This document shows, piece by piece, positions 15,501 to 43,300 of a DNA stretch of 64,000 nucleotides; position 1 is the first letter of the stretch; every line of letters begins with the position of its first letter. Made by a program: the position numbers and the translations under genes. The notes under the pieces are model-generated. The model searched no databases and was not told where the DNA came from. It worked only from the letters and a program-made list of their open reading frames with translations. This DNA comes from Protonemura montana (taxonomy: Eukaryota > Arthropoda > Insecta > Plecoptera > Nemouridae). Where the stretch lies: contig OX387603.1 of the NCBI GenBank assembly GCA_947568835.1, forward strand, positions 6,794,701 to 6,858,700, written 5' to 3'.

Positions 15501-18500
15501 TTTAAAAATGCGGAAGGAAGAAACGTCGGTGGTGCTCAACGCAGCTTTGACATTTCGAATACAGTTGTTTATTTTTCCATGAATTCGCAGCTGTCAGGTT
15601 CGATTAAGTTTAACATTTTCAGAATTAGAACCACTTACAAAATTTACCCGCTTTATAAAGACACGTCACTCTGCCTTTTTCTGCAGTCAGTCGGCCATAT
15701 TTGTTAGAATTTCTTATTCTGAAAATACGACAACCATCCCAAAGCTAGGTAAACGCATTTTAAAGATCATTTGGCATTCAAACTCAGTTTGGGATAAAAA
15801 AACACAATCATGTTTCGAGTTGATTCCGGCACCTAACCCTCTTTCGGCGAGCGAACGCTGCAAATGGCCTACGCCGTTTAGGGTTTCGCGACGTCCCACC
15901 GAATCAAAAGAGTCCTGCCGTGACCCGGATTCGAACCGGGGTTTCTGCGGCCACAACGCAGGGTACTAACCACTATACGATCACGGCTACCAGGACATTA
16001 TATCTGAGGTAATGAAAGCAATTCTTTAGTAGTTGCCAGCAGCAAGCGTTTTTTCACTCAACTCCGCCAACAAGTGGGTCAGTTTGGGCATGGCATGTCA
16101 GGCTTGGACGGTGATCACTCTACTTGGACCAGTCGACCGGAGCAGGGGAAAGGTGTGACGAGCTCGACGTGAACGTTAGCCTGAGGAATATCTTCGAAGA
16201 CAAACGAGTCTTAGCTTGATTTTAGTCATAGTCCCAACGAGCACGTTGAGAAAATTTCCAAAAATGTTGGCGAAATAAGTTATTGACTGACCTTCACTGC
16301 GAAACGTATGAACTATTCCCCAATCTGAATCGGTCAATTATCTTGTTATTTTCAATGTTAGACTATTTATATAACTTGCGTATCATAATTGATCTCGGGC
16401 TGGAGTCCAATTTTAAAGCAAATGATAAACACTTTTTGTCTCCCAAATTGGTAAACAGAGTGCATCAATTATGCAATCTGTACGTATATCACAATTTATT
16501 TTCAATAACGTGAGTGATATTCAAGGCATTCCCTCCCTGCACTCAATATATGAGTATAAAATGATATGATATGATACAGGATGAGATGTCTAGATATCTT
16601 ATTAAAACTGAGCGCACGGCGAGTTAGCACAGGCATCAGCTGAAAGTAAAACTCTGTACCACTCTGTACTATGTATGACGTGCATGCCCTGCTGTCAGTG
16701 AGCGAAACTTCTGATCGATTACACGAGTTACTTGAAGTGTTCATGTTAAGTCATACAAAAATATATTTTTATCAAAATTACCCTCGAGGTGCCAAAGCTT
16801 GGAATTCTCTGGAAAAAAACGGGGTAGTTATTTAGAAAAATGTCAGATACCTACCACTTGAAGAAGCTTCAACATTTTGAGATTGTTCAACAATTGCCTC
16901 TTCCACGACAAACCTCGTTCTCTTCTTGGCAGCTCTTTCTGCCCGTCTTTTAACCGCATCACCTTTTCTTTCTTCTGACATTCAAATTTATGTAGAGTGG
17001 TTCCAGGTTTTAATTTAATTGGTCCTCTGACCAATGAATATCCGACCCAATTGTCAACATCTTCTGACAGCTAGTAAAAAACGCATACGTATTATTATGA
17101 ATGCTTTAAATCTGACTAGACTTGATCAATAATAATATCTCAGATAAATTAAATTAATGCTATTATACAAGTAGTAATAGTTTTTACAATGGTATTACAT
17201 GTTACCTACATCAAAGTGGTCCTCACTGCAAAACACATTACTGACAGGAGAGAACTTCCCGACTCGCTTAGCAGCCGTCAACCACTTATTCCGGTAATTC
17301 CCTTTAGGAAAAGAAATAAATAACTTTTCTGGCGTTGTAATAATTGTGTTTGTGCACTTGGGCACAAAACACCACTTGTAGATTTTACTTTTCTCTCCGA
17401 TATCCAATGACAGCTACTTGCTGTTCTTGCACCGGCAGCCATGACACCATTGATGACGTCATGTGCTGCTAATTCAGATTTGCCGCGCTAGAGTGCACTT
17501 TTAAAAATGTGATTTTTCAATTAATTAATACGTGGACGATTGGGGAAATATTGAGTTTCAATAATTTTTTTACTACAATAGTAACGCAGACTGATGTTAA
17601 AGAAATATTTTTTAAAATCTTGCAAAAACCCTATTGTCACTTTTTGCCAACCGTACCAACTGTTATCAAAACCGTAACAGCTTTTTTGGCCATTTGAACC
17701 GGTGTTGCTCTTTTGTAATACACGTGAAATGGTCATCTATTTCGGCTAACGCAAGTTCCTGCTGCCAGTGGTGTATTGGCATTTGGCGGGTATAAGCGAG
17801 TATACCCACTTGTTTCTGGTTGTTCCCACTTTTTTATTCAAGAAATACGGCAAACGTTTGCAAGTTTGCTGTAAAAATTTACATTTGGTAGTAAATTGCT
17901 AGTATTACTAGAAATTTAAGATGAAACCGATTTGTAGATATCGAAACCTAAGAACGGAATCGCAAATTGACTAGAAATGTGGAGTTGTAATTTTAAAATA
18001 ACTACAAACAGCTGTGAACATTGTGTGAGACGAAATTGGCAGTTGAGTTCCCTGCCTTTATGAGAATTCTCGCAGAATTCTCGCATTTGAGAATGGTTTA
18101 CGCTAAATAATAATCTTCATTAATGCCTACCTTATTATAATTGTTATAAGCATACATTAATTAATATTGTTGATAATTTATTGTATAATTTTAAAATTGT
18201 TTAATTTTTTTTGTTATAATTTAGCTTACAAGGGATCCTCACCCCGCAAATCTTTTGTTCCCGGATGGTAGAGCACCCGACCGGCAATTGACAGATTCCG
18301 GTTTCGTATCCCGATTCGGTCGCGCATTTTTTCCAGTCCAGTTTCCTTTCCATCCTTCGCTTGCTGGTTTCAGCTCCCAGGTGTAAACAACAGAAAAACC
18401 AAAAAAAAACCTGGATTGTTTTAACGTTTTGCAAACGCCTCAAGTGGCACTGACATATCAGCTCGTTTGACTCTCACAACGCTTGACCCTCATAACCCTA

Positions 18501-21500
18501 AAAACCGAATGTTATTGCGTTCCAGGACCTGCACAGCGTGGACCTCGAGGAGTTCAAGTACGGGGGTACCAACATCACAGCACTGCGTCTTGTGGACCCC
18601 GAGATGCCCGAGCTGCTCAAGGTAATCAAGGACTGGCAGTACGGAGACTCGCGCTACGGCCGCAAGACTGACGCCCCGGTAACTACACCTTGCCTGTCTA
18701 CAACCGTCACTCCCTAGAAGAACCATGCACGTATCGACTGGCATGGAACAAATCTTGTACCGAAGACGTCTTGCTAATTCCGTACGGATGGCTAATGAGC
18801 GTAGCGAGCGAAGTAAAATCTTCAATTCCATATACCCAAGAAAACAAGCACTTCTATGTGTTTGTTTGTTCGCGGCCTAGCGGTCAAACGCCTGTTCTGA
18901 TTTAAACCAAATTTGCAGAGCACATTTGTTCTGAACTTAGACATGTGGTGTTTTTGAGAAAAAACTGTCGTGTAGTTTTGGAGCTATTCAAAATTTACAG
19001 ACAATTTTCATGTTTTTTAAATAAACTTTTCGGAGTTTTTAAAGTATGGACACACTTTTGTTAAAATTTGCAGAAATGGTTATCATGAAAACTAATTTTT
19101 TTAGATTTTATTTACCCTTTTCGTAATTCTGTGACACTTTTCATGACAACGGTTTTAGCAATTTTAACGGAAATACCGAAAGACGTATGCGGCGCTCCAA
19201 AGAAAAATACATGATTTATGATCAAAATAAGCTACGCTCGTCTGTAACGCAACTCAAGTTGCTCTGCGAAGCCCTAGTATGACAATAAGGCGTGTTGTGG
19301 CACGGCAGCAAATCTTAGAAGAAACATTTGCGAGCGAGTGACATTGCCATCATTGTACGCACCAAAGCAGCCAGTCGGAAACAAAATTTGTGTAGCACTC
19401 ATAGTATGTTTGTTACGAACTCAATGGGCGTGTTAACGCTTGGAAAGCTACATTTGCATGATTTTTCTTTGGTTATATTTAGTTATAAGCAGTAAAATTA
19501 CAGCAAATTACGGCATGTTCTGCATTTATCTATGTCTTGCATGTTTTACATTTTTGAAAGAGGGTGGAACCAAACTTTGGGGGTTACAGATCGAATATGA
19601 AACAGAGAAGAGGTAGAGAGTTAGTTTTCACAAATAAGTCTTGCAGGCAAAATGGCTACAGCACATGATATCTAAGTGGGAGGTGGTATCATATTTTCGT
19701 GACCCTATGTCAAAGTTTCGAAGCTCATTGTTTAGAATGTCTTGCTTGGTTATTTGTTGCATTCTATAGCGAAGTGTCGAGAAACTTTCTGTTTGCATAG
19801 TGGTGGCAAAGTTTATTTTCCCTTTAGATCTGCAGTGTGCACCAACAGTGTGATGTGGGCTTTTTGGTCATCAGCTGACGTACTTGATTACAAAATTACT
19901 GGCATTAATCGGATGTTTCATTTTGTTTCATGTCTGCTGTCTCTGCGTTGCAGAAGGATAATGTCACGTTCATTAAGGTAAAGTGCGACGATATTATTTG
20001 ACCAGATGAAATGATTTGTGTTCAAGGAAAGTGTTTTTGACGAGGACGCGGTATACATGACGCCGTTGACGCGAGCCCGTTCGAAATCTTAGTGATTTGA
20101 TTGATAAGTAGGGTTTCACGACGAACTGTTTTGCCAGTGTGCGTCGTTAAACCTCACTGATGTGCAGTTTTAGTGATAAAGTTTGGGGGAGTAATGACTG
20201 TGTGGTAACTGGTAAGTTTGGAAGTACAAATAATCGCCATGGACTTACTTAATCAAAAAATGTTTGGCGTTTGAAAACTTTGAAAGCGTTGCAGGTGGCG
20301 GTCACCCAACCGTCAAATTGCGCCGTGTTGTTGCTTAACTTGAGAACTACGGGATCGGAGTTGTATATGGTTCGTAGAAATTAGCAAACAAGCGGTGACC
20401 GAAATCTTGACTTGGTACCGTACCACCTCATTTCGAACCATGAACCCTTCTAAAGCGTTTTGAAACATATTCCATCCTACAGCGTCCACTTGTCAGATAT
20501 TTGTCACTCATGTCTCTACACGTCTTGTAACCGACACCGCGACGCCTTGCAGACGGAGACGGCGCTGATCTACGACGCCGTCCACCTGTTCGCGAAGGCG
20601 TTGCACGACCTTGACGCCAGCCAAAGGATCGACATCAAGCCGTTGAGCTGCGACGCCTCCGACACTTGGCCGCACGGCTACAGCCTCATCAACTACATGA
20701 AGATTGTAAGCATTTCACTGTGTAATTTCTACACTCTACTTCATTTAAGATGCTGAGATCGGCTTTCTGAAGTGCAGTCGGTTGAGACACTTGCATTAAA
20801 TCTGGCCTAATGTCCGGGCAAAATGTCCGGGCAAAATGTCCGGGCAAAATGTCCATGCTCAAACTATGAAAAATCACGGATGCCACGCCAGCGGGTAGTC
20901 AGTGGGATTCCTAAGTGTTCATGTCGTCTCCAAACACTTGCAGTGAAATTCAGATGTTTCTATATGCCCAACTCGGAGTTTATCTTACATCAGAAGTAGA
21001 TTTCTTGCCAAGTAAATAACAATTTGGTGAACTGCTATGGTAGCCAGCCCCACATGACAGTCAGATACAGAGCAACGGCTAATGTCCAGTTTTACAATTT
21101 TCCTAACTCGTTGATAAAGTGGGAGTTAAATCAATTGCCATGGCAGTGAAAAGCAGTACAAAGAGTTGAAAAATATTGTAGTACCGAGCCTAAGCAAACA
21201 ACAAGCCATGATGTATGATGTAAATAATGATTATGCGTTTGGTACGAGTAATTGAGTATCCACCACTCCTCATGAGTGCCTTGTGCATCGTGCATTTTGA
21301 GCGGATACTTTTGTTTCTGAAATCGCTTCTCCCTGTTTTTTTTTAGGTGGAGATGAAGGGCCTGACCGGAGTGATCAAGTTTGACAACCAAGGGTTCCGG
21401 TCCAACTTCCTCCTGGACATCGTCGAGCTTAGCAAGGACGGTCTGCGCAAGATCGGCACGTGGAACTCGACCGAGGGAGTCAACTTCACCCGGACGTACG

Positions 21501-24500
21501 GCGAGGTTTACACACAGGTGGTCGAGTCAATGCAGAATAAGACCTTCGTCGTCACCACAATACTGGTGAGCAAACCGTAGTCTGCACCATCTTTAGCCAG
21601 GAATATTTACCTGTTGGTGCTCTCCCCTTGTAGGTAGTTAACACTGCATATTAGTTATGTGCAACATCGTCATAAATGTTGCGTTTCCAAAAAGTTAGCT
21701 AAATTCACTACTTCCTGGTTTAAAATAGAATTAATCCTACAGATCTAATCAAATTTTTTACAAAATATATTCTAAAACTGTAATAGAATCGGCTATTTAT
21801 GTAGCAGAACGTTCACATATTTTTCAGGTAACATTTTTCAAATATTTAAATGAACGCTCCTGAAAATGTGATCAAATTGAACAGCGTTACAGTTACTACT
21901 AGCTAGCCGCCTACTTTCCAATTAGTTACATTTTTGTTACTTTTTAGTTCATTAAGGTGAATTTGCGCGTGCGCTCAAGGCACTAGAAGAGCTAATTATA
22001 GAGAGTAAACGTTAATGAAACTAGATCTTTTATATGAAAATATCATAGAGCACATTTAGTTCGCTAAAACTTCCATAGGAGGCCAGGACCAACTCACCCT
22101 TGAAGAAAAACCTCCTATATTAGGTTCTAAATGCATCTAGCTAACAACGAAATGTTGCCCTCTAAACGCCCCCGCCCTCTGGTTGCAGAGCTCGCCGTAC
22201 TGCATGCGCAAAGACTCCAGCGAGAAGTTGACTGGGAACGCGCAGTTCGAGGGGTACAGCGTCGACCTGATCCATGAGATCTCGCGCATCCTGGGATTCA
22301 ACTACACGTTCAAGCTGGTCCCCGATGGACGATACGGTTCGCTGAACAGGGAGACCAAGGAGTGGGACGGAATGATGAAGGAGCTCCTCGACCAGGTAAG
22401 GATGACTCTCCGTCTTTTCCAGTGTACAATTGTGTGATCACCGAAGTTAAGCATCACTGCGCTAGGTCGGGTTTTGAATGGGTGACCATCATGTACATGA
22501 CCGCTTCTATTTGCGAGAAAGGTTGGAGGGATAAAAGTTAGTACAGCAACTTTATTCACCTTGCTTCTTAACCGCTCGACAGCATGGATTTGTAGAGGAA
22601 TCCTGTTGTTAGAGTTGTACCGTCCTTCGGAAGGACTTTAAGGCCGGTGTTATTTGGTAGCAGGCACCGAGTTTCCCTACTCCCTCTTGTCTCATCAATT
22701 AGGTTAAGTTCATTAGCATCCTCATCATCACCACTCAGGAACAGACGTTACTTGTCCAGTGCCATAGGATCCGTTATCAAATGCCCACCTTCTCTTCTTC
22801 TTTGCCTGAATTGGAGAATAGTTCTGTTCAGAATGACAACTTTCTGGACTGGGTGTCAGTGTTGTGTTGACAGTCTTTGTGTAAAGCACAAAATGCTTAT
22901 AGGGAAAATTAAAAAACCCTTGCCGTAGCCCTAAGTAAAGACGTAAAAACATATCATGATAGACACGTTCAGAATTAAGACACCACGATTTTTTTGAGCC
23001 GAAAATAAGGAAGTAAAACCACTGTCAGGATTTTGTTTGAATTGCATTTAGTGCTTATTGTAGTATCGCAATTTTGTGTGCTTACTGCTTTAACTTCCTC
23101 CCGCCAACTAGAAGCATCTCTCAAAGAAGGGCAGACCCTCAGTATTTTTAAAACTTCCCATACTTTATTGCCAGCCTGGGGCAGGACTGTGATAGTCAAG
23201 GGGACTTTTTTCACGCGTCTAGAGTATCCTGCCTGGGTAGACAACCAGTCGTACATTGATGTATTGCTAAATGCATCTCTCCAGTTATCCAGGTATCCGT
23301 GTGATTTTCAGGTACCCAAAATGTTTCGATTGTTATTTCTGGTGTTTTGTTTTCTTGTCGCTATGTCTAAAGCTATGACAATGAAGTGCGCAACAATGGG
23401 TTTACTTTGCTTTATTGTTTTGTTTACTTTACACACATTTTAGGAAAAATGCCGAACACGATTCTTCAAATAAAAATGTGTGAAAATATATTTTCGTAAC
23501 ACTTCTCCATTCCATACGTAAGTTTGGCAAAAATTTCTGTTTTGTGACAAATTTCTGGGTAATGGGATGATACTAAAGGCAAGATTTACAATTTTGGTCG
23601 TACCTATCTCATTTTAATTTCATTGATAGAAGTAAATATCCCGTTTTGAAAAGTATATATTTTTTGGCAAATTTAATATGAATCTATCCCTAAATTATCA
23701 GAAAATTAGCCAGTGATCTAGAGTGATAAATAAAAGTCATCAAATAACTCGCCGAAACAGGTTTTCATGTGTCGAAAAAGGCAAGGTCCACAGCGGTTTT
23801 GTAGCGACTGCCGCATGGCGCTAGTGAATGCTTATATCTGACGCACCCAACACAAGCCTCCTTAGCTCAGTGGCTAGAGCACTGGTCTAGTAAACCAGGG
23901 GTCGTGAGTTCAATTCTCACAGGAGGCATGTTTTTTGTTTTTGAATCTCCTGTTTCATTGCATTCTTCATTCGATTATGACTTGCCAATGCGTTTACAAT
24001 TATTTTTTTCGATCATTTTTATCAAAATTATTTCAAATTTTGTCTCGCTTTAATTTTTTTGTGTAATAAGTCTTTTTTTTTTTAACAATCGTGATTTCTT
24101 GTACGCGATCGCTTTTAACGGAGGCAGATTAGAAAATTTAAAAACTTCGTGAAATTATCTTCTCAAAGATAACCCTCTTGGCCCTTCCGCGATTTGTTGG
24201 TTAAAATTGTAGAAATGTAATTTATCTTGGATTCCTAACCACGCCGCCATTGGCCATTGCGATCAATATAAAAGTAAGCAAAAATAATTAGCCTGCGTTG
24301 GTTTTATTCAAACTCAACTTTATAATTGTGATGAAACATGAACACAAAAACGTCCAATCGACTCCAACGTTTTCAGCGTGGTCAATACAGCTAGGATACC
24401 GAGATCGACCGCGGCAGCGCCCGAAACAGCCAACTCAGATTTTGCTCGATATTGCGACAACCGACTATCACACGGGAAAAAGACAAGGCTTGCCAAGAAG

Positions 24501-27500
24501 ACAATTTTGATTCGCTCTCGATGACCGTTTCCAAAATATATGCCCCCTATGAGAATTGAACTCATGACCCCTGGTTTACAAGACCAGTGCTCTGCCACTG
24601 AGCTAAGGAGGCAGATGTACTGCCGGGCGATAATGTACAGCTAGGAACCGAGTCGCCATTACGTCACGCTGAAACATATCATGAGCGTGGTGTGCAAATG
24701 GCCAATCGTAAGAATTATATTAGTTGCATTTACAATATAGTTCGGAAATGTAATATTATTTGTATTTTCGTGTCTTTATTGACATTTTTTTCATTTTACA
24801 GAAATGTAGTATCCTAGCTTTGATCCTAGCCACATCTATTCGATGCATTGTATATACCTACGCCGTTTTTTGTTTGCTTTTCTATTATCTAATGCGAACT
24901 CGTCTCAAATCCCAACTGATTAACAATCTTCTTGATGGGACGTGTTTTTAAAACTAGCTTACCTTCCATCTACCTCCGCCCATTGCCGTGCAGGAGTCTA
25001 CAACTACAAGGACAAAGGGGAATTTAGCTGTCCTAGCAGCAAAACGAGAGAATTGAAATTGTCACCGAACAATCGTTATTCGCTTGTTTATGAGAATTAC
25101 ATTGTTTTAATTGTTATTACAACAATTGTGCATTTGTTATTGGCTACCAAAGGCCGAAGTGGCTCGAGGAAATTAGCACAATTTGGTGACAGATTTTGTC
25201 GATGCCCTGGTCCGGAGTTATGATGTAACTTTCTTGAACCAGTGATAGAAGATGCGGTGAGAATAAGATGCCTACATTTGTTCAATTTCACTGTTTTTTT
25301 TCCATCGGCAACAATTAGCTATCTCACCTTAACTGTTTAACTGATAAAAACTTAAGTAGATTTTCACTGCAGTTATATATTTGAAAAACATGGCAAGTAA
25401 TTTAAAGTTTAAACCCCCCTTTCCAACCCCAAAAGTCGTCAATGTAGGCAATGATTGAAACATCTGCCCAAAATCGAGAGCGACATTGAATGAAATGGTG
25501 CACCGTTGTCAAATCGGCCATAAAATATGTTCAGATTGCTTATTAAATTTGCATATCCACTGCTCCATTGGTTATGTCTAAACCAGGTCAACTGATGGAC
25601 ACTTCAAATATTAAAAAATATTATCTCTTTCCCACATTTGGAATAATGCCAAAACGATATGCAACAACACTTTCTTGATAGCGACAGCATTAACATAACT
25701 CTCAGAACCAGATTGCTGGCCATGATAAGGATGCTCAACGCGACCAACCACATACAATTTTTGAATCGATGTTAAAAATATGCCTCCTGTGAGAATTGAA
25801 CTCACGACCCCTGGTTTACGAGACCAGTGCTCTGCCACTGAGCTAAGGAGGCCCATGATAACGATGAGGTAACTGTACGACCTGAGCTTTCAGCCGCAAA
25901 TGGCTTGGCACTTGGCATGCCATAGACAACAATATTGATACGCGTTTGTACAGCTGCTCTCCGACATTTGTTACAAGAATAAAATATGGTATTAGCACAG
26001 AGTATTGCCTAGTTAGGTTCGTACTGCGAAATGCTAGCAGAGTTACCCAAATCGCTCAAGCCAGGAAGTCAAACTGACTGCATTTCGCCATCCCTAATAT
26101 TGTTTCAATCTATTTTGAAAAATTAATATAAATATTTTAAGGTTTGAAATCACCTTTAACCCTTCTTAATTACCTCGATTAAAATAATTTGTTTTTTTTG
26201 CGTCATTATGGATATCAGATATCTTGTAATGCCCTACAGTTAATTTGGGTTTCTTCAAATTAGTTATAAATTTCATTCCCTTACACATTTGTTAGGTTAT
26301 GATGGAAAAGCAACAATAGAAAAGCAGGCTTAGTAACAGGATCTTGACAAAATGACCAACCTTGATGACCGAATTATTTGTTTCGCAGCGTGCAGATCTG
26401 GCCATCGCCGACCTAACAATCACCTACGACCGCGAGCAAGCCGTCGACTTCACGATGCCGTTCATGAACCTGGGCATCAGCATCCTCTACCGGAAACCAC
26501 TCAAGCAGCCACCCAACCTCTTCTCCTTCCTGTCACCGCTCTCGCTGGATGTCTGGATCTACATGGCCACCGCCTACCTCGGCGTATCGGTGCTGCTCTT
26601 CATTCTGGCCAGGTAGGCGTCAGACATGTTTCCTGCTGCCTCAGAAATCTAGTTAAAATAGCCGAGTAGATTGACTAGCAACAGCTTATGGGTTATTGTT
26701 GTGAGAACACTGTGTTATCAGCCATTTTTGTTGGTGGTACCCTGACATTATTATAAAAAAAATCCTTAATTATGGCCATTGGTGACACGTGCTTCGATTT
26801 TAATTGAGCTGTGCTCTCCTTTATGGCCGGAACCAATACATAATAATCAAACACCCTAAATTAGCTCTTTTTAGCTCCTGCTTTGCACGATATTGAAAAC
26901 CGTATCTGCTCTTCAAGTATGTGTATATGTGTGACTCACAAGGAGAGAAGCGTTTGGTACGAACCACTCCTCCCACCCTTACTTTCTTGGAGTTTAGCTT
27001 TTCTGTTCTGCAGGAATGTCAACCAGTAGCATAAATACGAGGGTATGGAATTGGAAAGTAGAATTCAAACAAAAGTCACTGGCTATATTATTTCCTTTTA
27101 TTCAACAGTAAATAATTAATTGATTTCCCCCATGCCTACTAACGCATGGTCAAAATGTGTGGCTGCTAATCAAACATCTTGCATTTCTCAGAAGAACGGT
27201 TCAGTCATAGTTAATAATCGTGTGTGCTGGAGATATGTTCAATCTTGATCTTTCATAGCATAAGGAGGTAAGGTTGGTAATCCCCCCCCCCCCCCCCAAA
27301 CGGAACTGACTTTCATCCCTCCAACCTCTCTCCCAAACAGAACTGGTCATGTGTATGATGGTCAACCATTCAATATCTGACTCAGCGCAGTGTTGCTTAA
27401 CTTCGATGAACTCATAAGAACCGGTGTTTCCAACAAGCCAAACCGTTCTGTCTTGGGTGATCTTCTAAAGGAAGAGGAAGACCGTTATCTGAGATGCGTT

Positions 27501-30500
27501 CCAACGCAATGACAAGTGATGTTACTATCTGATGGTGTTACATTCCAAAGATAACTTTGTCAGTTCCGCTTTGTTCGTGAGTTATTTATGGATCACAGAC
27601 ATTCCTCAATAATGAGACTTCTTTCCGAAAAATAATGGTATTTGCACCATAGCCGATGTTTCTAATAATTAAACAAATATCCTGAAGTATTTTGTGAATA
27701 GAATCATAAATGTACCTTTATTACATTTTGATAACGCTGTTTATTTGATGCAATGTCAGTCCGTGGCTGAAATTGACCTGTCCATTCACCCGTGACCGGT
27801 GACCAAATTTATTAGAAATTGACAAATGAATGCCGAACTGGCGGTGGGGGACAATACACTCTCCTAACGCCCCCCCCCCCCCCCCCCCTGCAGTCAGTGG
27901 CTCTTGGAATAGTATGGAAATGATGTGTGTTAATGTGTCAGATTATTGTTTTATTGCTCAGTTTTACCGTCATCTTTGAGTCTTGCCCTCCTGGTCATCT
28001 GAAGTCCTTTGCCTTTGCCCGCCGCACGCCACCCACACACGCTAACCGACCGGCGCCCACCTTGTAGGTTCACGCCTTATGAATGGCAGAACCCGCACCC
28101 TTGCGATCCGGAACCGACACGACTCGAGAACCAGTTCACGTTGCTCAACTGTTTGTGGTTCGCCATAGGCTCTCTGATGCAACAGGGATGCGACTTCTTG
28201 CCCAAGTGAGTGAGCAAAACTTGACTCCTTGCTGGTTACTTGTCCACAGGTTTAGCCCGTATGAGTGGGACAACCCCCATCCGTGTCTTGATGAACCGGA
28301 TGTGCTGGAGAATCAGTTCAGTTTGTTGAATTCGTTGTGGTTTACGATCGGCTCCCTAATGCAGCAGGGGTCTGATATTGCACCAAAGTGAGTTCTCCTC
28401 AGATCTACGTACAATAAGTAGCTAGTCGATGTCACTTATGCTCGTGCAATTACGAGACCCAGTAAGATAATTTCTGCTGCGTAAGTCTCCCTGGAAAAAT
28501 TTAGTTTCACAATTATCACTTTACTACATTGTTCTAATTTTAATAATATCCTATCAGATTACCTGCACATCGGCCTGTTGGTCTAGGGGTATGATTCTCG
28601 CTTCGGGTGCGAGAGGTCCCGGGTTCAAATCCCGGACAGGCCCAATCTTTTTTTTTTTATACTTGTGACCTCATCTCCTGATTGGATTTTCAGGGCCGTA
28701 TCGACGCGCATGGTGGCGGGTATGTGGTGGTTCTTCACCTTGATCATGATCTCGTCGTACACCGCCAACTTGGCCGCGTTCTTGACCGTCGAACGCATGG
28801 ACTCACCCATTGAGTCGGCGGAGGACCTCGCCAAGCAGACCAAGATCAAGTATGGCGCTCTCGGGGGCGGCTCGACGGCCTCCTTCTTCAGAGTGAGTTT
28901 CTCATCCGAATGAAACGATATCGCCTACATAATTGATCAATTGTTGATCTGGGTTGGGGTAAACTTTGCAATGTTCAAACTGAAGGGATAGACACTATCT
29001 TTTAATAACAGACTTCTTGCTTAATTTGTGTCTAACTTATAATTCAACCAAAATTCAATTTCAAACTTTAACTTCAAACTACATGTTGGGATACGAGAAC
29101 TCTACTGATTTTGTTAACATAATTTCCCTAGACATAAAGGAGCAGTAAAATTAAACTAGGTGCTATCATGCATCGGCCTGTTGGTCTAGGGGTATGATTC
29201 TCGCTTCGGGTGCGAGAGGTCCCGGGTTCAATTCCCGGACAGGCCCTATTTAACTTTTGGAGAGAAATCACTTGACTGGTCCGATTTCTACCTTTTTTCC
29301 GGGAGTACCGTTGATACTATATGCATTGGGGAGGGATCGCAACTTTTTTGAGGTAGTCTCAAAAACTTGACGACTATTCACAAATATCGGATATCATTTA
29401 AACAACTTTTAAAGCAATCGCTAAAATGTAAAAGTTTAGATGAAACTTTCAAAGATGTTTGATATTACTAAAGGTCGATTCTGTCTAACCACTGAATCCC
29501 AACCCCCGCGATGCGCAGGACTCGAACTTCTCGACGTACCAGCGCATGTGGTCGTTCATGGAGTCAGCGCGGCCCACAGTGTTCGCCGGCTCTAACGTGG
29601 AGGGCGTCGACCGTGTACAGAAGGGCAAGGGCAGCTATGCGTTCCTCATGGAGTCTACCTCCATCGAGTATGTCATCGAACGCAACTGTCAGCTCACCCA
29701 AGTCGGCGGCTTGCTTGACTCCAAGGGATACGGGATCGCCATGCCGCCAAGTGAGTACACCGACGGGCAGTGAGGGATCTTGATGGCACTGTTCGGGCGA
29801 AGTTAGTATAGATTCACTTGTCTTGCTAATCACTCTCTCGACAACAGTTGAGGATATATTGTGGGGAAATTCGCTAGGAAATATTCCCCTTGCTCCTCGA
29901 TAGGAGTAGGTTACGAGCCGGCACTACATTTCTAAATCAACCCACTCCCTTGTAGATGGGCTTGATTTATCATAATCCTTATCATCACACACTCATTCAC
30001 CAAAGCCGTTAAACAAATGCCTCAGGGTCATTTGAAAAAAAAACAATGCGTCGTAAGTGTTTAAATTTAGGGTAGCAGAAAAGAAAATGCATCACAGGAA
30101 GGAATGATAGCGATATATGGTGTAGAAGAACGGAAACTTAATCCACCCTTGCCTTGCAGACTCTCCGTACAGGACGGCCATCAGCGGTGCAGTCCTGAAG
30201 TTGCAGGAGGAAGGCAAGCTGCACATCCTGAAGACGCGTTGGTGGAAAGAAAAGCGAGGAGGCGGCTCGTGTAGGGTGAGTGTTACATCAGAAACTACGT
30301 GGCCTTGGGAGGCATTTTCTGTACCAAGAGAGGCCGTTTTACAATCTTGTACAATGAAAATCTCCAATCATTAAAGATTCAAAACTTGAAATGAGTGAAA
30401 GCAATCCAGAACGGCAACTAAGATATCTTTCCTAGTGCCCACGATACGAGAGACTGTGGTTCAGCCACCCATCAACCGTTGTTCTCAACTTTGGCACCTC

Positions 30501-30738
30501 TTCTTTCCCTCAGGACGACACCTCTAAGAGCAGCTCAGCCGCCAACGAACTGGGACTCGCCAACGTCGGAGGGGTGTTCGTGGTACTGCTGGGTGGCATG
30601 GGAGTCGCCTGCGTCATCGCCGTCTGCGAATTCGTGTGGAAATCACGCAAGGTAGCCGTTGACGAGAGGGTCAGTAGCTCCTCTCCCAACTCCAACTCAA
30701 AGACAATATACAAGCGGAAGATTGCCTTCTGGGAGTGA
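6512..30738 (+). CDS. GluR-B: kainate-type ionotropic glutamate receptor with alternative pore exons
   Basis: Exons: 6512-6593, 8291-8446, 10853-11037, 13535-13692, 14538-14679, 18526-18678, 20553-20705, 21347-21565, 22189-22395, 26389-26612, then 28068-28205 or 28250-28387, then 28694-28892, 29519-29750, 30160-30275, 30514-30738. With one pore exon the CDS is 2589 nt (862 aa). Order: signal peptide (1-28), amino-terminal domain (to about 400), S1 ligand-binding half (417-535), TM1 (about 539-559), pore loop with MQQG, TM3 with [17 protein letters not shown]2, and TM4 (about 805-830). Canonical glutamate-contact residues are present: Arg in TYDREQ (about 500), the GGGST turn, and Glu in LMEST (about 717). 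The order and motifs match GluK subunits, so a glutamate-gated cation channel is expected. The tail is uncertain: a good donor after 30669 (AGG|GTCAGT) lies at the position where GluR-C has its last intron, so another C-terminus may exist. Introns host tRNAs, SINEs and a THAP fragment. Confidence 0.9.
12935..13030. repeat. Degenerate tandem repeat around AACCCCTGTTC
   Basis: The units AAACCCCTGTTCGAAAG, AAACCCTGTTCTAAACC and similar alternate about five times, flanked by TTCGAAGTAGTTT on both sides. It lies in GluR-B intron 3. Confidence 0.6.
13183..13201. repeat. C homopolymer tract
   Basis: A run of C followed by CTCTCTCTCC in GluR-B intron 3. Similar tracts are at 27283-27297 and 27872-27889. 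Length may be unreliable in the assembly. Confidence 0.7.
13697..14490 (-). mobile_element. Cluster of overlapping 5S-rRNA-headed SINE copies
   Basis: At least four partial or near-full copies of one repeat are joined head to tail in minus orientation, starting 5 nt after the GluR-B exon 4 donor. Read on the minus strand, the head has CACCGG(T/A)CCTCGTGAG, then GATCACCGA(A/C)GTT, TTAAGCAACACTGCGC, and GGATGGTGACCATCATAC. These correspond to the internal control region of metazoan 5S rRNA. The body contains GGTTGGAGGGATGAAAG, ATCCTGTTG-type and CCGTCCTTCGGAAGG segments. The tail ends in CGTCGTTAAACACCACA. There is no coding capacity. Confidence 0.75.
15916..15987 (-). tRNA. tRNA-His(GTG)
   Basis: 72 nt. 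The acceptor stem pairs GCCGTGA with TCACGGC. The anticodon loop is TTGTGGC (GTG), and the T-arm carries GGTTCGAATCC. A TTTT terminator follows on the minus strand. It lies inside GluR-B intron 5, opposite to the host gene. Confidence 0.95.
16855..17407 (-). CDS. THAP-domain protein, partial or decaying gene antisense in GluR-B intron 5
   Basis: Two minus-strand exon-like blocks. Block 1 (about 17220-17407) encodes [25 protein letters not shown] and [10 protein letters not shown], which is the C2CH zinc-binding pattern (C-x4-C ... C-x3-H) of a THAP DNA-binding domain. A donor (GAT|GTAGGT) follows. Block 2 (16855-17070, acceptor TTTACTAG) continues in phase with [17 protein letters not shown] and LKPGTT, the usual end of the domain, then a lysine/arginine-rich stretch. 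I found no in-frame ATG before block 1 (a TAG lies just upstream), and no clear exon after 16855. A missing upstream exon or a pseudogene are both possible. THAP proteins are often derived from P-element transposases, and no transposase domain is visible here. Confidence 0.5.
18258..18365 (+). mobile_element. tRNA-headed SINE, family 1, copy 1
   Basis: It has a box A-like ATGGTAGAGCACCCGACC, the shared CGGCAATTG, a box B-like GGTTTCGTATCCC, and the tail CATTTTTTCCAGTCCAGTTTC. It is related to the copy at 59553-59662 and lies in GluR-B intron 5. It is too diverged to fold as a functional tRNA. Confidence 0.6.
20809..20856. repeat. 13-bp minisatellite, about 3.5 units
   Basis: Perfect tandem copies of AATGTCCGGGCAA in GluR-B intron 7. 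Confidence 0.85.
22430..22740 (+). mobile_element. 5S-rRNA-headed SINE copy in GluR-B intron 9
   Basis: Begins with TGATCACCGAAGTTAAGCA and TTTGAATGGGTGACCATCAT, the clearest 5S-rRNA-like head in the window, followed by the shared body with CGTCCTTCGGAAGGAC and a CATCCTCATCATCACC stretch. It starts about 35 nt after the exon 9 donor. Confidence 0.8.
23856..23928 (+). tRNA. tRNA-Thr(AGT)
   Basis: 73 nt. The acceptor stem pairs GCCTCCT with AGGAGGC, the anticodon loop is CTAGTAA, and the T-loop is AGTTCAATTC. A T6 terminator follows directly. It lies in GluR-B intron 9. Confidence 0.95.
24541..24612 (-). tRNA. tRNA-Thr(TGT)
   Basis: 72 nt on the minus strand. The acceptor stem pairs GCCTCCT with AGGGGGC with a G:T wobble, and the anticodon loop is CTTGTAA. 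A TTTT terminator lies downstream. It lies in GluR-B intron 9. Confidence 0.93.
25781..25852 (-). tRNA. tRNA-Thr(CGT)
   Basis: 72 nt on the minus strand. The acceptor stem pairs GCCTCCT with AGGAGGC and the anticodon loop is CTCGTAA. A T5 terminator lies downstream. It is the third threonine isoacceptor in the same intron. Confidence 0.94.
26704..26752. mobile_element. Fragment of the same MITE family
   Basis: One end only: ACTGTGTTATCAGCC followed by ATTTTTGTTGGTGGTA, matching the right end of copy 1. It lies at the start of GluR-B intron 10. Confidence 0.45.
27307..27465 (-). mobile_element. 5S-rRNA-headed SINE, 5' half, GluR-B intron 10
   Basis: Minus orientation. It contains the TTTCATCCCTCCAACCTCTC body segment and the GAACCGGTGTTTCC / GTTGCTTAACTTCG head signatures. 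It is preceded directly by a C-homopolymer at 27283-27297. Confidence 0.7.
28068..28205 (+). CDS. GluR-B alternative pore-loop exon 11a (MQQGCD form)
   Basis: The exon is 138 nt with acceptor CTTGTAG|G and donor CCCAA|GTGAGT. It enters with one base (completing Arg with exon 10) and leaves two bases of a Lys codon. It encodes the TM1-pore linker ([12 protein letters not shown]) and the whole re-entrant loop, [19 protein letters not shown]. The Q/R-editing-site position is genomically Gln, and the +3/+4 residues are Cys-Asp, as in AMPA subunits. It shares 33 of 45 residues with exon 11b, has identical length and phase, and is intact. It is spliced to the shared exon at 28694. Confidence 0.88.
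28250..28387 (+). CDS. GluR-B alternative pore-loop exon 11b (MQQGSD form)
   Basis: The exon is 138 nt with acceptor TGTCCACAG|G and donor CCAAA|GTGAGT, in the same phases as 11a. It encodes [12 protein letters not shown] and [19 protein letters not shown]. The +3 residue is Ser, as in kainate subunits. Only 44 nt (28206-28249) separate it from 11a, which probably makes splicing 11a directly to 11b difficult. GluR-C has a single counterpart fused to its preceding exon and most like 11b. Confidence 0.88.
28572..28643 (+). tRNA. tRNA-Pro(CGG), copy 1
   Basis: 72 nt. The acceptor stem pairs GGCCTGT with ACAGGCC, the anticodon loop is TTCGGGT, and the T-arm is GGTTCAAATCC. A long T-run follows. 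It lies in the intron between the alternative pore exons and exon 12 of GluR-B. Confidence 0.95.
29175..29246 (+). tRNA. tRNA-Pro(CGG), copy 2
   Basis: 72 nt, identical to copy 1 except for one T-loop base (TTCAATTCC instead of TTCAAATCC). A TTTT terminator is close downstream. It lies in GluR-B intron 12, on the same strand as its host. Confidence 0.94.
29865..30030 (+). mobile_element. Diverged fragment of the 5S-headed SINE 3' part
   Basis: GAGTAGGTTACGAGCCGGCA, TTATCATCACACACTCATTC and CCGTTAAACAAATGCC resemble the 3' half of the family. It lies in GluR-B intron 13. Confidence 0.4.
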
Positions 30739-35948: not shown

Positions 35949-37386
35949 CACATAAAAGTGATACATTACTTTTACAAAAACATTTTTATTACCATCTTAT
36001 TCGCTTGTCTAATATAATCCAAGCACCTTGGATAGAAATTCAACGGACGTCTCTTCACAAGAAAGCAGCAAATTAAAAGTTCGCGGTCAATTGTGTAACT
36101 TTCAAAGCCATCTCTAACGCCCCTACGCTTATAGATCTCAGTCCCCTGAGCTTTTCGATGGTGGAGATGGACCCCGCTGTCTGTAAGGAACTCGCCGATT
36201 GCGCAACAGCCCGGCTAAATTTACACGGTAGACTCCGGCCGTTGACTAAGGTGCGCATGTGTATGAGATGGGGGGCAAGGAGCCAAAACGGAGATGCTTT
36301 TTGACACAGTTGACACGGTCGTGGGTCTTGAACTCCACGTTCTGCGTTGTCGTCTTCTTCGCCGTCGTCGATGCTGTTGTTGTGAGTAACTCAAAGACTG
36401 AACCATATGGCGTGTTAGTTGTGCACAAAAATGGTGTGATTTTAGCGTTTTAATGGCGTGTGGTATCGAATGGATGCCATAGTTACTCGTTGGTGATGTT
36501 TGAAAGTGAGGGAGTTGTTAGCGTTGGTATTTAACAGATTAAAATATGTTTTTGAAGTTAGTGCACCTTTGTATTATAAATTTGGGCTCCTTCCCAGGGC
36601 CCAGTAAGCGTTAATATGTCTGCTAACCAAATTCCTTCGCACATTCATTCCCCTATACCAGGCAAAAGCTGATGACTTATGTCCAATCTTGTATATTACT
36701 ATGTTGCTTTATGGTCTCAAACTTCAGAAATACCCACATTATTTTGTTTCCTCGTGGAAAGTCCTCGCCCTGTGTGTTTGATCTGAGAAGTTGTGATGTT
36801 TCTGCGCTCGAGTGAATATTTTCCAGTTCAATCATACTGGAAACAAAATTCACGAGACGTTTGAATTAATTTGTAAATTTGTTTGTAATTGAGCACTAGA
36901 AACCAAATGATAACTGTGTAAACGATGTTTTGAAAATGTTTACATTAAATTTTATAAAATTTTACATTTTATTTGGTTAGACATTAGGTAGTATTTAGTT
37001 CCCAAAAAAAGAAGGCAGTACAGTTGTAACCCATTACAACAGAGTATGTATGACTTCAGTTGTCTACACGAAGCTGGCAGTTAATTTTAATGAACAGAGT
37101 ATGTCATTAAAAAATACAAACGTACTCAGACTAAAGTCCGAGGCCAACAGCTGGGAAGTCGTAGCCATAGAGCACGAGCTGCCGTACATGTGTGGGCCAT
37201 ATTAGCTCTGGTTCTCAGGTGCATGAGAAACAACCCAGCTAAATTACTTTTCAAAATCGCGGTTCGCAATTCAAGAGCCGCCAATTTTATGAATCGCATT
37301 GCGTGTCCCCCAAGGTTAACCTTGTATACTTGACAACCTGTGGTTAACCGCTCGGTCCCAGTCCCACGAGTGGCGAACGACGCCCC
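35949..37386. other. Interval between galectin and GluR-C
   Basis: Mostly AT-rich non-coding sequence. The one exon-like item is listed separately at 36268-36381. The GluR-C promoter should lie toward the right end. Confidence 0.4.
36268..36381 (+). other. Possible signal-peptide-like exon, unassigned
   Basis: An ATG opens 38 codons ending in a strong hydrophobic stretch (STFCVVVFFAVVDAVV), immediately followed by a consensus donor (GTT|GTGAGT). It lies about 1 kb upstream of GluR-C, which has its own signal peptide. It could be an alternative first exon, the first exon of a short unseen gene, or chance. Confidence 0.25.
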
Positions 37387-40300
37387 ATGACGCCGATCCT
37401 GAGCGTCGCGACGCTCCTGACCCTGTGTGCGGTCGGCGCCCTGGGCTTGCAAGATGTGATCAGGATTGGCGGGCTGTTCCATACGATGGAGGCGTCGCAG
37501 GAGCTGGCCTTCCGTTATGCTGCAGAGATGATCAACGCCGACCGCGCGATCCTTGCTAATCACACGCTGATGACGCACTACGAGAAGGTGCCCGAGCACG
37601 ACAGCTTTCAGGTGTCGCGGACCGGTACGTACGAATAGCCAGACAGAGTACTTTTTTTTTGACGCTCCCAAAAAAAAATCCGGTTTACTCTGACATAGGG
37701 CTGGACTGCAACGGAGGTTGTCCTGCCTATACTCACATTTTCTCACCCCGAATAAAATTAAAATAAAACCAGAGGCAAGTATCTTGTCCGAGATCCTAAG
37801 CTATCAAAGGACAAAGTATACAACCATATTATTCTTACGGTTCTGCTTTCAATGCAGCACACAGATGTTTCTGAAATAGGTTTGCATTTTTTTTGTTATC
37901 ATGAAAATAAGACGAATAGAAAATACCCTAAAGTTAAAAAAACTTTCATTTTGGTCGGTGCTTTATGCATAAAAACGTTGATATGCTGTAAGTCCAACCC
38001 GTGTGGTTTATAACTAATCAGCCCTATTATTGAAAAGTTGATCCCGAGCAGAGCTTGCCCCGCATGGCGAGCCGCGCTGGTGGCGAACCTTTAAGGGCGC
38101 TGATTGACAATTGATTTGTTCTGTTTAACAACGTACTTTTTTGACAACTGGCCGAGTGGTACTGATCTAATGACATCTGTATGATGATGAGGATGATGAT
38201 GAACGATGCACGATCACCTGCGCAGTGTGCAAGCTGCTGAGCGTGGGCGTGGCAGGCATCTTCGGACCGCAGTCGGGAGACACTTCAGACCACGTGCAGT
38301 CGATGTGCGACACCATGGACGTACCCCACGTGGAAACGCGCTGGGACGTGCGCCGGCGCAGGCAGCATTTCCTCGTCAACCTCTACCCACATCCCGCCAC
38401 CTTGTCACGGGTACGTGTTTTCTCTTGATTGCTTGATTTGTTGAGTTTAACGACGCACTGTTTTGATAACGTGCCTTGCACTGGAAAATTGACGTCTGTG
38501 AATGAGTGGGTGATGATGGGGGTGGACATGAACCTAACCTAGTTTAAAAGGGAGGAGGCGAAACCCGGCGCCGGCACGTAGACTATTCCTGTCGCAGAGC
38601 ACCTAGTACTTCTCCTATGATGAACGGTACAACTCGAACAACAGGACTCCTCCACAGATCCATGCTGTTGAGAGTTGATGAGTAAGGCGAATAAAGTTGA
38701 TGAACAACTTTCATCCTTTCAACCTCTCTTCCAAATAACCATTACAATGCCTGACTCAGCGCAGTGTTAAGAACCGGTGTTTCCACAACGCCAAACCGAT
38801 CGGTATGTGTTTTGGTAATGATCCAATAGATATGACTTCAGCGAATATTACTCGACGACGCTTAGCAGTGACATTTGATCGGTATGTATTCTTTGCGGAG
38901 ACTGTTTCAACATTGGCAACAAACTTCAATGCCTCACAGGTATTTGCCGACTTGGTGTCTGCGTGGGGCTGGAAGAGTTTCACTGTGCTGTACGAGGACG
39001 GCGAGGGTCTGGTTCGCCTAGCCGATTTGCTCAAGTTCTACTCGCCCAAGGGGCACACGGTCACCGTTCGTCAACTCCATCCGGAAGCCGTCAACCACCG
39101 GCCCACCCTACGCCAAGTGCGCGACTCTGGCGAGAAGAACATCGTGCTCGACTGCGCAGTCGACAGGCTGCCCGAGATTCTCAAGCAGGCGCAGCAGGTG
39201 AGCGCGCAGTCACGAGTTTTCCACAACCCTGACCTCCCGTAACTCCTATTGATCGGTTAAAAGTGGGAGGAAACTTGGAAAAAACAAAGTTCACTTCAAG
39301 GTCGAGATGAGTGTGCTGAGCATACTGACATAGATTTTTTTCAATCTTTATTCGTTTACCAGGTGCAATAATCTAAGTCTCTTGGAGCTAGCACATATTA
39401 CAGAAACACCTCGTGAAAAAATGTGTGCTCATATGTCAAAATTCAGTTTTATAAGCCGCTTAAATTTTTTCTTTATTTTTACATTACTGGTAAGAACTCC
39501 TGACGCCTGTGACTTCGCTAAAAATGGACGTATTCCCGTCGAGTTCATATTCAAATCACAAAATACAATCCATAGAATCTTTGATAATCTAACGCGAAAA
39601 ACTGTGAAACATGAACCTTTAGCTAACCTTAGCTTAAACCTTTAGCTAGCATCTGCGCCTTACAGAACGCAAGATGTCATCTTCCAAGAGATCCTAACGG
39701 TGACTAATTTCTGGTGCAGGTGGGCCTGATGGTGTCGGACATGAACTACATAATTACCAACCTGGACATGCACACCGTGGACCTGGAGCCGTTCCAGTGG
39801 GGCGACACAAACATCACAGGAGTGCGCCTCGTGGACCCACAGAGCATGGACGTTCAGCTGGCCGTAAGGGCGTGGTCGGACCGTGAGATGCGCCGTGGAG
39901 TCATCCTCGACATCACGCCCGACTCGCTGAGGGTGAGCAACGCCCTGCCCTGCCCTGCCCTATTAACCCACCCCATGCCCTGACACTTTAGAACAGCTGC
40001 CATTTAGATCAAATAAAAGTATAAGATGCACTGAAGCCAAATCTGCCGGAGTACAGGCAAGAATGGTTAGAACAATAGGAATAAATTCAAGCGTTCGTGT
40101 CATTTTTTTTCATCGGGTTGCTTTCCTGAGTGAGTATCGGGCCAGGCAAGACGCACCAATTGTCTTAGAAAATGTGTCATTACAGCTGAGCACGGCGCTG
40201 GTCTACGACGCCGTCTACTTGTTCGCGAAGGCGCTTGCGCGGCTAGACAGTCCCTCTGTAGAGATTACCCCACTGGACTGCAGCACTGACGCCACCTGGC

Positions 40301-43300
40301 ACCACGGTTCTTCACTCATCAACTTCATGAAGGACGTGAGTTCAAAGGGAATAGGATAAATTATTCCAATAACGAATTACTTATTTTGTATTGGGTACCA
40401 TCGCTGTTCGCCGGTAAGTAATTGCGATAAACCCAGTTGTAACCTGAATGGGCATCGCTACTACAAATGTGTGCCGTGTCCGCCTTTGCAGGGACAGAGC
40501 GCCCACCGTGGATTGACAGGCCTGATCCAGTTCGACAACGAGGGATTCCGGTCCAAGTTCGAGCTGGACATCGTGGAGATGACAACCGACGGCTTACAAA
40601 AGGTTGGCACGTGGAACGCCTCCGAGGGACTGAATCTGACGCGCGCGCAGCCAAACAACGATCTCGGTGGGAAGGATCAACTTCATAACATGACATTCAT
40701 CGTGCTGACAGCACTGGTAAGAAGTCTTGCTTGACTCGACCTGATCTACAACATCTTGCCCTCTAAACACCCCCGTCCTGGTTGCAGAGCTCGCCGTACG
40801 GCATGTTGAAGGAGTCTAGCGAGTCGCTGACCGGTAACGACCGATTCGAGGGTTTCGGTATTGACCTGATCCGCGAGATCTCAATGATGCTGGGCTTCAA
40901 CTACACGTTTGAGCTGCAGCATGACCTCAAGAACGGCGCGTTCAACAACGTGACCAAGGAGTGGGATGGCATGGTCCGCGCACTCATCGACCGGGTATGG
41001 TCGCAATCTGTCTACCTACGAAGTTATTAAACATCCTTGTTATAACAATTGAGTCATCGCTATAGTGAGCACCGCAGTAGAACCATGCGGTCCAAGAGAC
41101 AACGAGTCTGCAGAGAGATTTAGAGTTGATTCAATTTGTAACCAAAAGGAAAACACTGTTTTTTAAGGGGTTTCAATTTTGTTACCCGATTCCTCCTATT
41201 AGGTTTTCGTGGAGAAAATTAATTTACAAGCATTGTGAACTTTTTTCTCTTTCACCCTTTGCAGGGTCTTAAAAGGTTTTCAGAAAATAATCTTGATGAA
41301 TTCTTACTTTTTGTACAAATTCAATTTAATTAGTATTAATTACTCGTCAAAAAAAGAAAAACAAAAAAAACGGAGAAAATGTTCCTTTGCTTTGTAATGT
41401 CACATGTCAGCGGAAGATTATTTCTGAACTCATTGACTAGTTACATGAGGAGCAACTGATTTAGCGGAGAAATGGACCAGATTATGGCATCGCCTAATTC
41501 TCTATATAATCTAATTGCCGTTTCTTCGATCTACAGAAGGCTGATCTGGCCATCACTGACCTGACGATTACCGCTGATCGTGAGAGCGCCGTCGACTTCA
41601 CGATGCCGTTCATGAACCTGGGCATCAGCATTCTCTACAAGAAGCCGACCAAGGAGGCGCCAAAGCTGTTCTCATTCCTCTCCACCTTCTCGTCGGGCGT
41701 TTGGATCTACATGTTGTTCGCGTACACGGGAGTGTCGCTGGTGATGTTCATCACGGGCCGGATATCACCCAAGGAGTGGAACAACCCTTACCCGTGTATC
41801 CAGGACCCCGACGAGCTCGAGAACCAATTCAATCTAAAGAACGCGTTCTGGTTCACAATCGGCTCGCTCATGCAGCAAGGCTCTGAAATCGCCCCGATGT
41901 GAGTATACGATTCTGTGTTGTTACTTGCTTGTCTTGAGAGAACTAACGTTTGAAACTGTGAAGCGAATTGCAAACAAACCGCTAAGCTTTATGTACACAT
42001 TTACAATGAGAGTTTCGAGCAAACGCAGAATTGGGAACTTAGCCTAACAGGCCGAAGTGCTTTGAAACGCCGAGCCCGAAGCGCCCTGATCGCACCAACG
42101 CCGACTTCAAACACGCTTTACTTCTCGGTATTGCTGATGTTTTTGAGTTGATTTCAGCGCCATCTCCACACGTATGGTGGCAGGCATCTGGTGGTTCTTC
42201 ACCCTCATCATGGTCTCGTCTTACACGGCGAACCTGGCGGCTGTACTGACGGTTGAGTCGATGAATTCACCGTTCCGCACCGCCGAGGAGATGGCCAATC
42301 AGAACGTTATCAAGTACGGCGCTAAGAAAGGCGGCTCCACGGCCGGCTTCTTCAGGGTGAGTCCCCTGGAATTAGCCACCGCAAGATAAGGAACATTCCA
42401 TTCCAAAATCAATCATCTTGCGTACCGTTCTAGTACAGTTTGTCCTAACCCTTACGGCTAAAGCCCTTTAAGTCAAATCCAAGGCCACTGGTTCAGTTCG
42501 TTAATGATTTCAATGTAACTGTCAAATTATAAATAATTTAACCGCACAGCCGTCCGTTGCCACTGAAGTTGCGCCTAACTTCTGACCCCATTGTCCTCGC
42601 AGGACTCCGGCAACGAGGTATACCAACGCATGTGGACGTTCATGTCGTCCAACCCGGACGTTTGGACCGACTCCAACGACCAGGGACTGAACTGGGTGAA
42701 GACCAAGAACTACGCGTACCTGATGGAGTCAACTTCTATAGAGTACATCATCGAGCGCGACTGCGGGGTCACGCAGATCGGAGGGCAGCTCGACGCCAAG
42801 GGTTACGGGATCGCCATGCGAAAGAGTACGCTCGCAGTTAAACGTCTTCTCAGATATTGTTTTCGCCAACTAAAAATAATCACTTGTAACAGTTTCTGAA
42901 ATTGGTACAAACCTCATTTTTATCACATGATTATCTAACAGCGGTGGACAACAGTTTCCTGGGGAGTGAGTGAGTAAAACGGTGGCTGCAGGATTAACGT
43001 AAATGATATGCATTTCGAAAACTGAAAGGCTGTTTTTTTTTAGCTTAAATGCATGTGTTGATACACTTAAGCGGTGATTTCAGTTATATTACCCTCGAGG
43101 CTGAGGCAGGATGATGGGATAGCTGGTATCAATCACGGCGGACACCGATTCTGTTGCAGACTCGACTTACAGGAATGCCATGAGCACGGCCGTGTTGAAG
43201 CTGCAGGAGACAGGCAAGCTGACAAAGCTGAAGAACCGTTGGTGGAAGGAGGAGCGCGGCGGCGGCGCCTGTGACGTAAGTCAGTTGACAGTCGACAGTC

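Follow-up and report, generated by a model that had tools for sequence, protein, structure and literature searches.

In vertebrates, the residue at the Q/R site of glutamate receptor pores is recoded by RNA editing, which in GluA2, GluK1 and GluK2 alters the pore loop while the ligand-binding domain stays unchanged. The pore loop fixes which ions are passed and which blockers are bound. Of the residues that set Ca2+ permeability, the best known are a Gln at the Q/R site and an Asp four residues on (+4). The Q/R substitution is reported to abolish Ca2+ permeability in vertebrates (PMC8257547). The same source gives the flip/flop exons of the AMPA receptors (GluA1-4) as 115 nt long and places them at the end of S2 in the ligand-binding domain; joined flop-flip products amount to as much as 12% there and are expected to be lost through decay (PMC8257547). 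Tandem homologous exons are also found in the arthropod muscle myosin heavy chain clusters, and the exclusive use of such exons is already known from insect Mhc (PMC2257972). The genome analysed here has a muscle-type Mhc gene on contig C1 (6015301-6018763, minus strand; L063) with six tandem relay-exon matches, the four measured being 171 nt each.

We analysed a window of 64,000 nt of Protonemura montana DNA (all positions without a contig name refer to this whole stretch) in which the gene here called GluR-B carries two alternative exons for the pore loop. Two markers in the genome, a TTAGG-type telomere repeat at one of nine contig ends inspected and the COX1 sequence, agree with a place among the arthropods. 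The pair resembles flip/flop in that two adjacent homologous exons stand in a non-NMDA receptor gene and one of them would be used per mRNA. Unlike flip/flop, however, the GluR-B exons are 138 nt long, code for the pore loop and keep the reading frame, and they lie between M1 and M3 rather than at the end of S2. As in Q/R editing, the pore loop would be altered beside an unchanged ligand-binding domain, but the choice would lie in alternative exons and not in the editing of a base. From the myosin heavy chain clusters the locus differs in that myosin is a motor protein, whereas the product here is an ion channel. A pore loop swapped by splicing would keep transmitter sensing and change ion flow in a single step, and could do so in individual cells; arthropods with the genes described below can probably change the ion pore of a receptor in this way.

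Mutually exclusive exons are a known kind; it is their place in the pore loop of this receptor family that provisionally appears new. Among the literature matches listed, which do not take in Hatje and Kollmar 2013, the principal survey for Drosophila, none describes a pore-loop exon pair in any glutamate receptor in its title or the opening of its abstract. With the same scope, we found no description of a pore-exon pair in KaiR1D or in GluK1-3. Further, the word "glutamate" is absent from the main text of three papers on exon clusters (PMC3228551, PMC3303723, PMC3923563).

The GluR-B gene and its two pore exons

GluR-B runs on the plus strand from the amino-terminal domain to M4 (10873..30666), which is a minimum span since these are tblastn ends and the outer ends are not fixed. 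Exons were found for the amino-terminal domain, S1, M1, the pore, M3, S2 and M4, with both the Lig_chan and the Lig_chan-Glu_bd domain. The best solved-structure match of the S1 part is the Drosophila kainate receptor CG3822 (KaiR1D; E = 4.7e-50) and those of the channel part are kainate-type chains (best E = 1.3e-88); the closest known receptors are thus of the kainate type, such as KaiR1D and vertebrate GluK1-3. Because of these matches the gene is classed by sequence as kainate-type, and the name GluR-B does not stand for vertebrate GluA2.

The exon for the end of S1 and M1 (26389..26612, plus strand; acceptor TTTCGCAG, donor CAG/GTAGGC) is the upstream partner common to both pore exons, and the M3 exon (28694..28892, plus strand) is their common downstream partner. 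Between them, on the same strand, lie pore exon A (138 nt, 28068..28205; acceptor TTGTAG, donor AA/GTGAGT) and pore exon B (138 nt, 28250..28387; acceptor CCACAG, donor AA/GTGAGT), separated by a gap of 44 nt (28206..28249) that starts with GT, ends with AG and holds a branch-point-like A at nt 19. Each pore exon is made up of 1 nt, 45 codons and 2 nt, has phase 2 at both ends, and codes for the M1-M2 linker together with all of the pore loop in a receptor of the kainate type. The donor is GTGAGT in both cases and agrees with the consensus at 8/9 positions each. The reading frame continued past exon A runs into TGA immediately. A preliminary description of this DNA had proposed two adjacent 138-nt exons of equal phase with intact splice sites, and the GT-AG borders confirm this arrangement along with all the junction positions it had given (26612, 28068, 28205, 28250, 28387 and 28694).

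Codon alignment of A and B also reproduces the 33 identical residues among 45 whole codons that had been counted before (35/47 with the two split codons) and the residue differences then named, that is, GCD versus GSD, Ala versus Thr before IGSLM, and FLP versus IAP. Homology between the two exons is beyond chance (tblastn E = 1.6e-22 in a set of seven genomic regions). At the nucleotide level 90/138 positions are identical and, because the other 48 differ, the pair is not an assembly duplicate; we therefore reject this origin of the second pore exon, which the preliminary description had named as a possible artefact. A and B are thus adjacent internal exons of similar length and the same phase that code for homologous protein, as expected of a mutually exclusive pair.

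Neither GluR-B pore exon looks decayed, because the two fit the family equally well and differ mostly at third codon positions. Against the Lig_chan profile, the joined S1-to-M4 exon pieces scored 173 bits with A and 172.2 bits with B. The differences between A and B fall 9/9/30 on the three codon positions, so that third positions hold 30/48, more than equal thirds would give (binomial p = 3e-5). Synonymous change is saturated to the point where dS is not estimable, and the A/B duplication is therefore old. The equal family score and the third-position bias, together with the 44-nt gap and the same pair in a paralogue, lend partial support to the earlier reading of the two exons as intact, alternative cassettes for the pore.

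By alignment to GluK2, the M1-M2 linker or the start of M2 contains seven of the 12 residues that differ between A and B (positions 3, 8, 14, 15, 18, 19 and 25, numbered over 47), and the other five lie in or beside the pore loop (29 C/S, 33 A/T, 42 C/S, 44 F/I and 45 L/A). Both forms have Gln at the Q/R site and Asp at +4, and for this reason the functional difference between the two pores may be modest. Unlike the products of Q/R editing, then, the two GluR-B forms do not differ at the Q/R site, and the choice between them would be expected to alter conductance or block rather than to act as a full Ca2+ switch.

Several small RNA elements share the introns of GluR-B. Two tRNA-Pro (CGG) genes, alike at 71/72 bases, lie on the sense strand in the introns flanking the M3 exon (28572-28643 and 29175-29246); the first, with a T run behind it, ends 50 nt before the M3 exon, and the second lacks such a run. 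Three tRNA-Thr genes (at 23856, 24540 and 25781, with anticodons AGT, TGT and CGT) sit in a single intron. A 5S-rRNA-like element (27336-27451, minus strand) is found in the intron before exon A, and related pieces occur elsewhere in the window and at 9/12 loci (L042-L053). These pieces (33 in blastn, including the query) seem to belong to a repeat family derived from 5S, with some of the members in tandem.

Probable splicing of exons A and B

We consider it probable that A and B are an old mutually exclusive exon pair, of which one enters each mRNA to give two pore forms, and that steric interference is what makes the choice exclusive in GluR-B. It is from sequence that we infer the usage of the two exons, their exclusivity, a choice between them by tissue, and an altered permeation or block. 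The GluR-B mRNA would lead from the M1 exon to either A or B and on to the M3 exon, and the products would be subunits that share their ligand-binding domain and have either of two forms of the M1-M2 linker and pore loop. Exclusivity by steric interference would follow from the position of the only branch-point-like A, roughly 19 nt beyond the donor of exon A, a distance that would be too short for an intron. Work on human exon pairs takes less than 50 bp from donor to branch point as the mark of steric interference (PMC5740500), and of the four receptor pairs found in this genome only that of GluR-B has a distance below about 50 nt.

A and B could also be cassette exons that are not exclusive, in which case A, B, both or neither would be included, and as 138 nt is a multiple of three, skipping or double inclusion would keep the frame. 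Whether the 44-nt gap could serve as an intron bears directly on this reading. As a yardstick, we used all 103 myosin match rows and estimated the gap lengths from the match ends: the 58 gaps between successive myosin-exon matches have a median of 400 nt and a shortest value of about 77 nt, with none below 60 nt, although introns divisible by three may be read through inside a myosin match. One GluR-C intron is 71 nt. Four of the 103 myosin matches are longer than the profile stretch (by 45, 84, 216 and 354 nt) and, because in-frame introns could hide inside such over-long matches, very short introns are possible in this genome, in keeping with non-exclusive cassettes. A 44-nt intron would nevertheless undercut the shortest of the 58 estimated myosin gaps, and the A-B gap is probably too short for use as an intron. 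Double inclusion would moreover give a receptor with two pore loops and skipping one with none, neither of which should fit the receptor fold. Taken together, we regard non-exclusive inclusion as very unlikely.

For the mutually exclusive reading, a gap that seems too short as an intron means that steric interference would enforce exclusivity in GluR-B. The joining of A to B would be in frame, so mRNA decay would not remove it, and in this respect GluR-B is unlike flip/flop; the gap itself is therefore the likely guard against A+B joining. We found no RNA pairing placed to enforce the A/B choice in GluR-B. Two inverted repeats were considered as an exclusivity device and rejected for their unsuited placement, one lying wholly in the intron before A and the other being an A/T run that flanks both exons.

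The pore exon pair in the neighbouring paralogues

Genome searches with each GluR-B pore peptide returned 10 matches for A and 9 for B. Among the genes with such pore exons is the neighbouring paralogue GluR-A on the minus strand, which reaches into the window with three 5' exon matches (1024..2525). Its pore exons lie to the left of the window, first an A-type exon ending in ...MGQGCDILPK (138 nt, C2:6789675-6789538, minus strand) and then, at a distance of 1,258 nt, a B-type exon (138 nt, C2:6788279-6788142, minus strand). Their order is as in GluR-B (Cys/LPK, then Ser/IAP), the phases are the same, and one M3 exon follows; all four pore exons of the two genes are 138 nt long. At the Q/R site GluR-A has G in the A type and Q in the B type. 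Between two GluR-A exons, on the opposite strand to the gene, there is also a match to the U4atac minor spliceosomal RNA (264-394, plus strand).

Across GluR-A and GluR-B, three sites separate A from B types (14 D/L, 42 C/S and 45 L/A), one (position 24) groups by gene, and none crosses. In the best tree the two A forms group together (70/77) and the B forms group with GluR-C (55/81), while a wider tree of 11 rows leaves the A forms without resolved placement. One A/B duplication before the split of GluR-A and GluR-B is likely from these patterns. Alternatively, the pairs arose by separate duplications in the two genes and came to be alike by convergence or gene conversion, and both the gene-wise grouping at position 24 and the forced gene-wise pairing of the pore exons, which is not rejected (p-AU 0.31 and 0.22), would agree with this. 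The same order, length and phase and the three type-defining residues shared across the two genes speak against it, however, and we think separate duplications unlikely; they would in any case concern only the origin of the pairs and be compatible with exclusive splicing.

The third paralogue, GluR-C (approximately 37348..44018, plus strand), has a single B-like pore (41759-41896) that shares an exon with M1, and the pore peptide searches found no A-type pore in this gene. With 12 non-pore exon queries at an E-value of 0.05 we found no second copies of non-pore exons in GluR-A, GluR-B or GluR-C; one of the queries splits into two pieces in GluR-A with an intron between them, and the S2 queries gave one match per gene.

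The single pore form of GluR-C would suit a history in which only one pore exon is used and the other is a duplicate heading for decay, as would the GluR-A exons, which are quite diverged. Their differences by codon position are 18/16/22, and because they differ without a third-position bias (p = 0.21) the GluR-A pair may be under weak constraint. With 28.3 bits, the A-type exon of GluR-A misses the Lig_chan cut-off of 30.8, and the B-type exon of this gene is absent from the genome match list for this profile (63 rows, several from these genes). However, both exon types persist in GluR-A, and both GluR-B exons keep their frame, length, phases, donors and equal family scores despite the synonymous saturation, which makes the use of a single exon distinctly improbable.

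If A and B are mutually exclusive in GluR-A as well, steric interference cannot act there across the 1,258-nt gap between the exons. We searched for intronic sequence common to GluR-A and GluR-B and found none that was significant, the only significant matches being exonic.

M1 and pore cassettes on contig C15

Two more kainate-type genes lie on contig C15, gene a on the minus strand at 5.48 Mb and gene b on the plus strand at 5.77 Mb, each with one S1 (in two exons), two tandem exons that code for M1 together with the pore, and one M3 exon. The first copy in C15a is a K exon (aK; 252 nt, C15:5480796-5480545, minus strand, LLKQGTGVNP), followed after 668 nt by a Q exon (aQ; 258 nt, C15:5479876-5479619, minus strand). 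In C15b an R exon (bR; 258 nt, C15:5767712-5767969, plus strand, FLRQGSGLNP) is followed after 3,985 nt by a Q exon (bQ; 276 nt, C15:5771955-5772230, plus strand), and all four cassettes are in phase 0. Joined to M3, the Q exon of C15a or the R exon of C15b has GluK2 as its best match among solved chains, which places both genes with the kainate type. No S2 or M4 exon of C15b was found up to 5780000, the end of the stretch searched. Our searches of this genome thus recovered pore-cassette pairs in 4/5 kainate-type genes (GluR-A, GluR-B, C15a and C15b; not GluR-C).

The R of the bR exon aligns with the first Q of GluK2 MQQGS, which we take to be the Q/R site. At this site the first copy has K (C15a) or R (C15b) and the second has Q in both genes, so that the C15 cassettes, when compared with Q/R editing, differ at the aligned site by Q versus R or K. 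Among the kainate subunits already present in insect databases there may be some whose pore is of the R type as well as some of the Q type. The K and R exons group together in our trees (96/96 with 47 columns and 86/91 with 86 columns), and a pairing of aK with the Q exon of its own gene is rejected (p-AU 0.0285), while neither a pairing of bR with its own Q exon (p-AU 0.134) nor one with aQ (p-AU 0.13) is. The aK exon may be decaying, because it has a long branch, an arginine run in the linker and a low Lig_chan score (32.9 bits versus 67.1-70.8 for the other three C15 cassettes).

The pairs on C2 and C15 look like separate duplications because their cassette borders and phases differ. We see an even chance that duplication of a pore cassette was repeated in this arthropod lineage, taking in M2 in GluR-A/GluR-B and, separately, M1+M2 in C15, and that the choice of exon in the C15 genes sets the Q/R site and so switches Ca2+ permeability with the ligand-binding domain unchanged. 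Provided that it acts as in vertebrates, the swap of Q for R or K would amount to a strong switch, and splicing would then do what vertebrates do by RNA editing. The C15 pairs permit a direct test of whether exon choice sets a residue that vertebrates set by editing, with a bearing on the reasons why control of the Q/R site arose and on how Ca2+ entry is tuned in the muscle and nerve of arthropods. Steric interference is absent as a guard in C15a and C15b, and with gaps of 0.67-4 kb in GluR-A, C15a and C15b another mechanism of exclusivity would be needed in these three genes.

A further receptor gene, on contig C4, is AMPA-type by its best matches and has one pore match. The same contig contains matches to mitochondrial COX1 (C4:5760925-5777755), one of which equals in score the copy in contig C34 (15.9 kb); either COX1 was recently inserted into the nuclear genome here, or the assembly is at fault.
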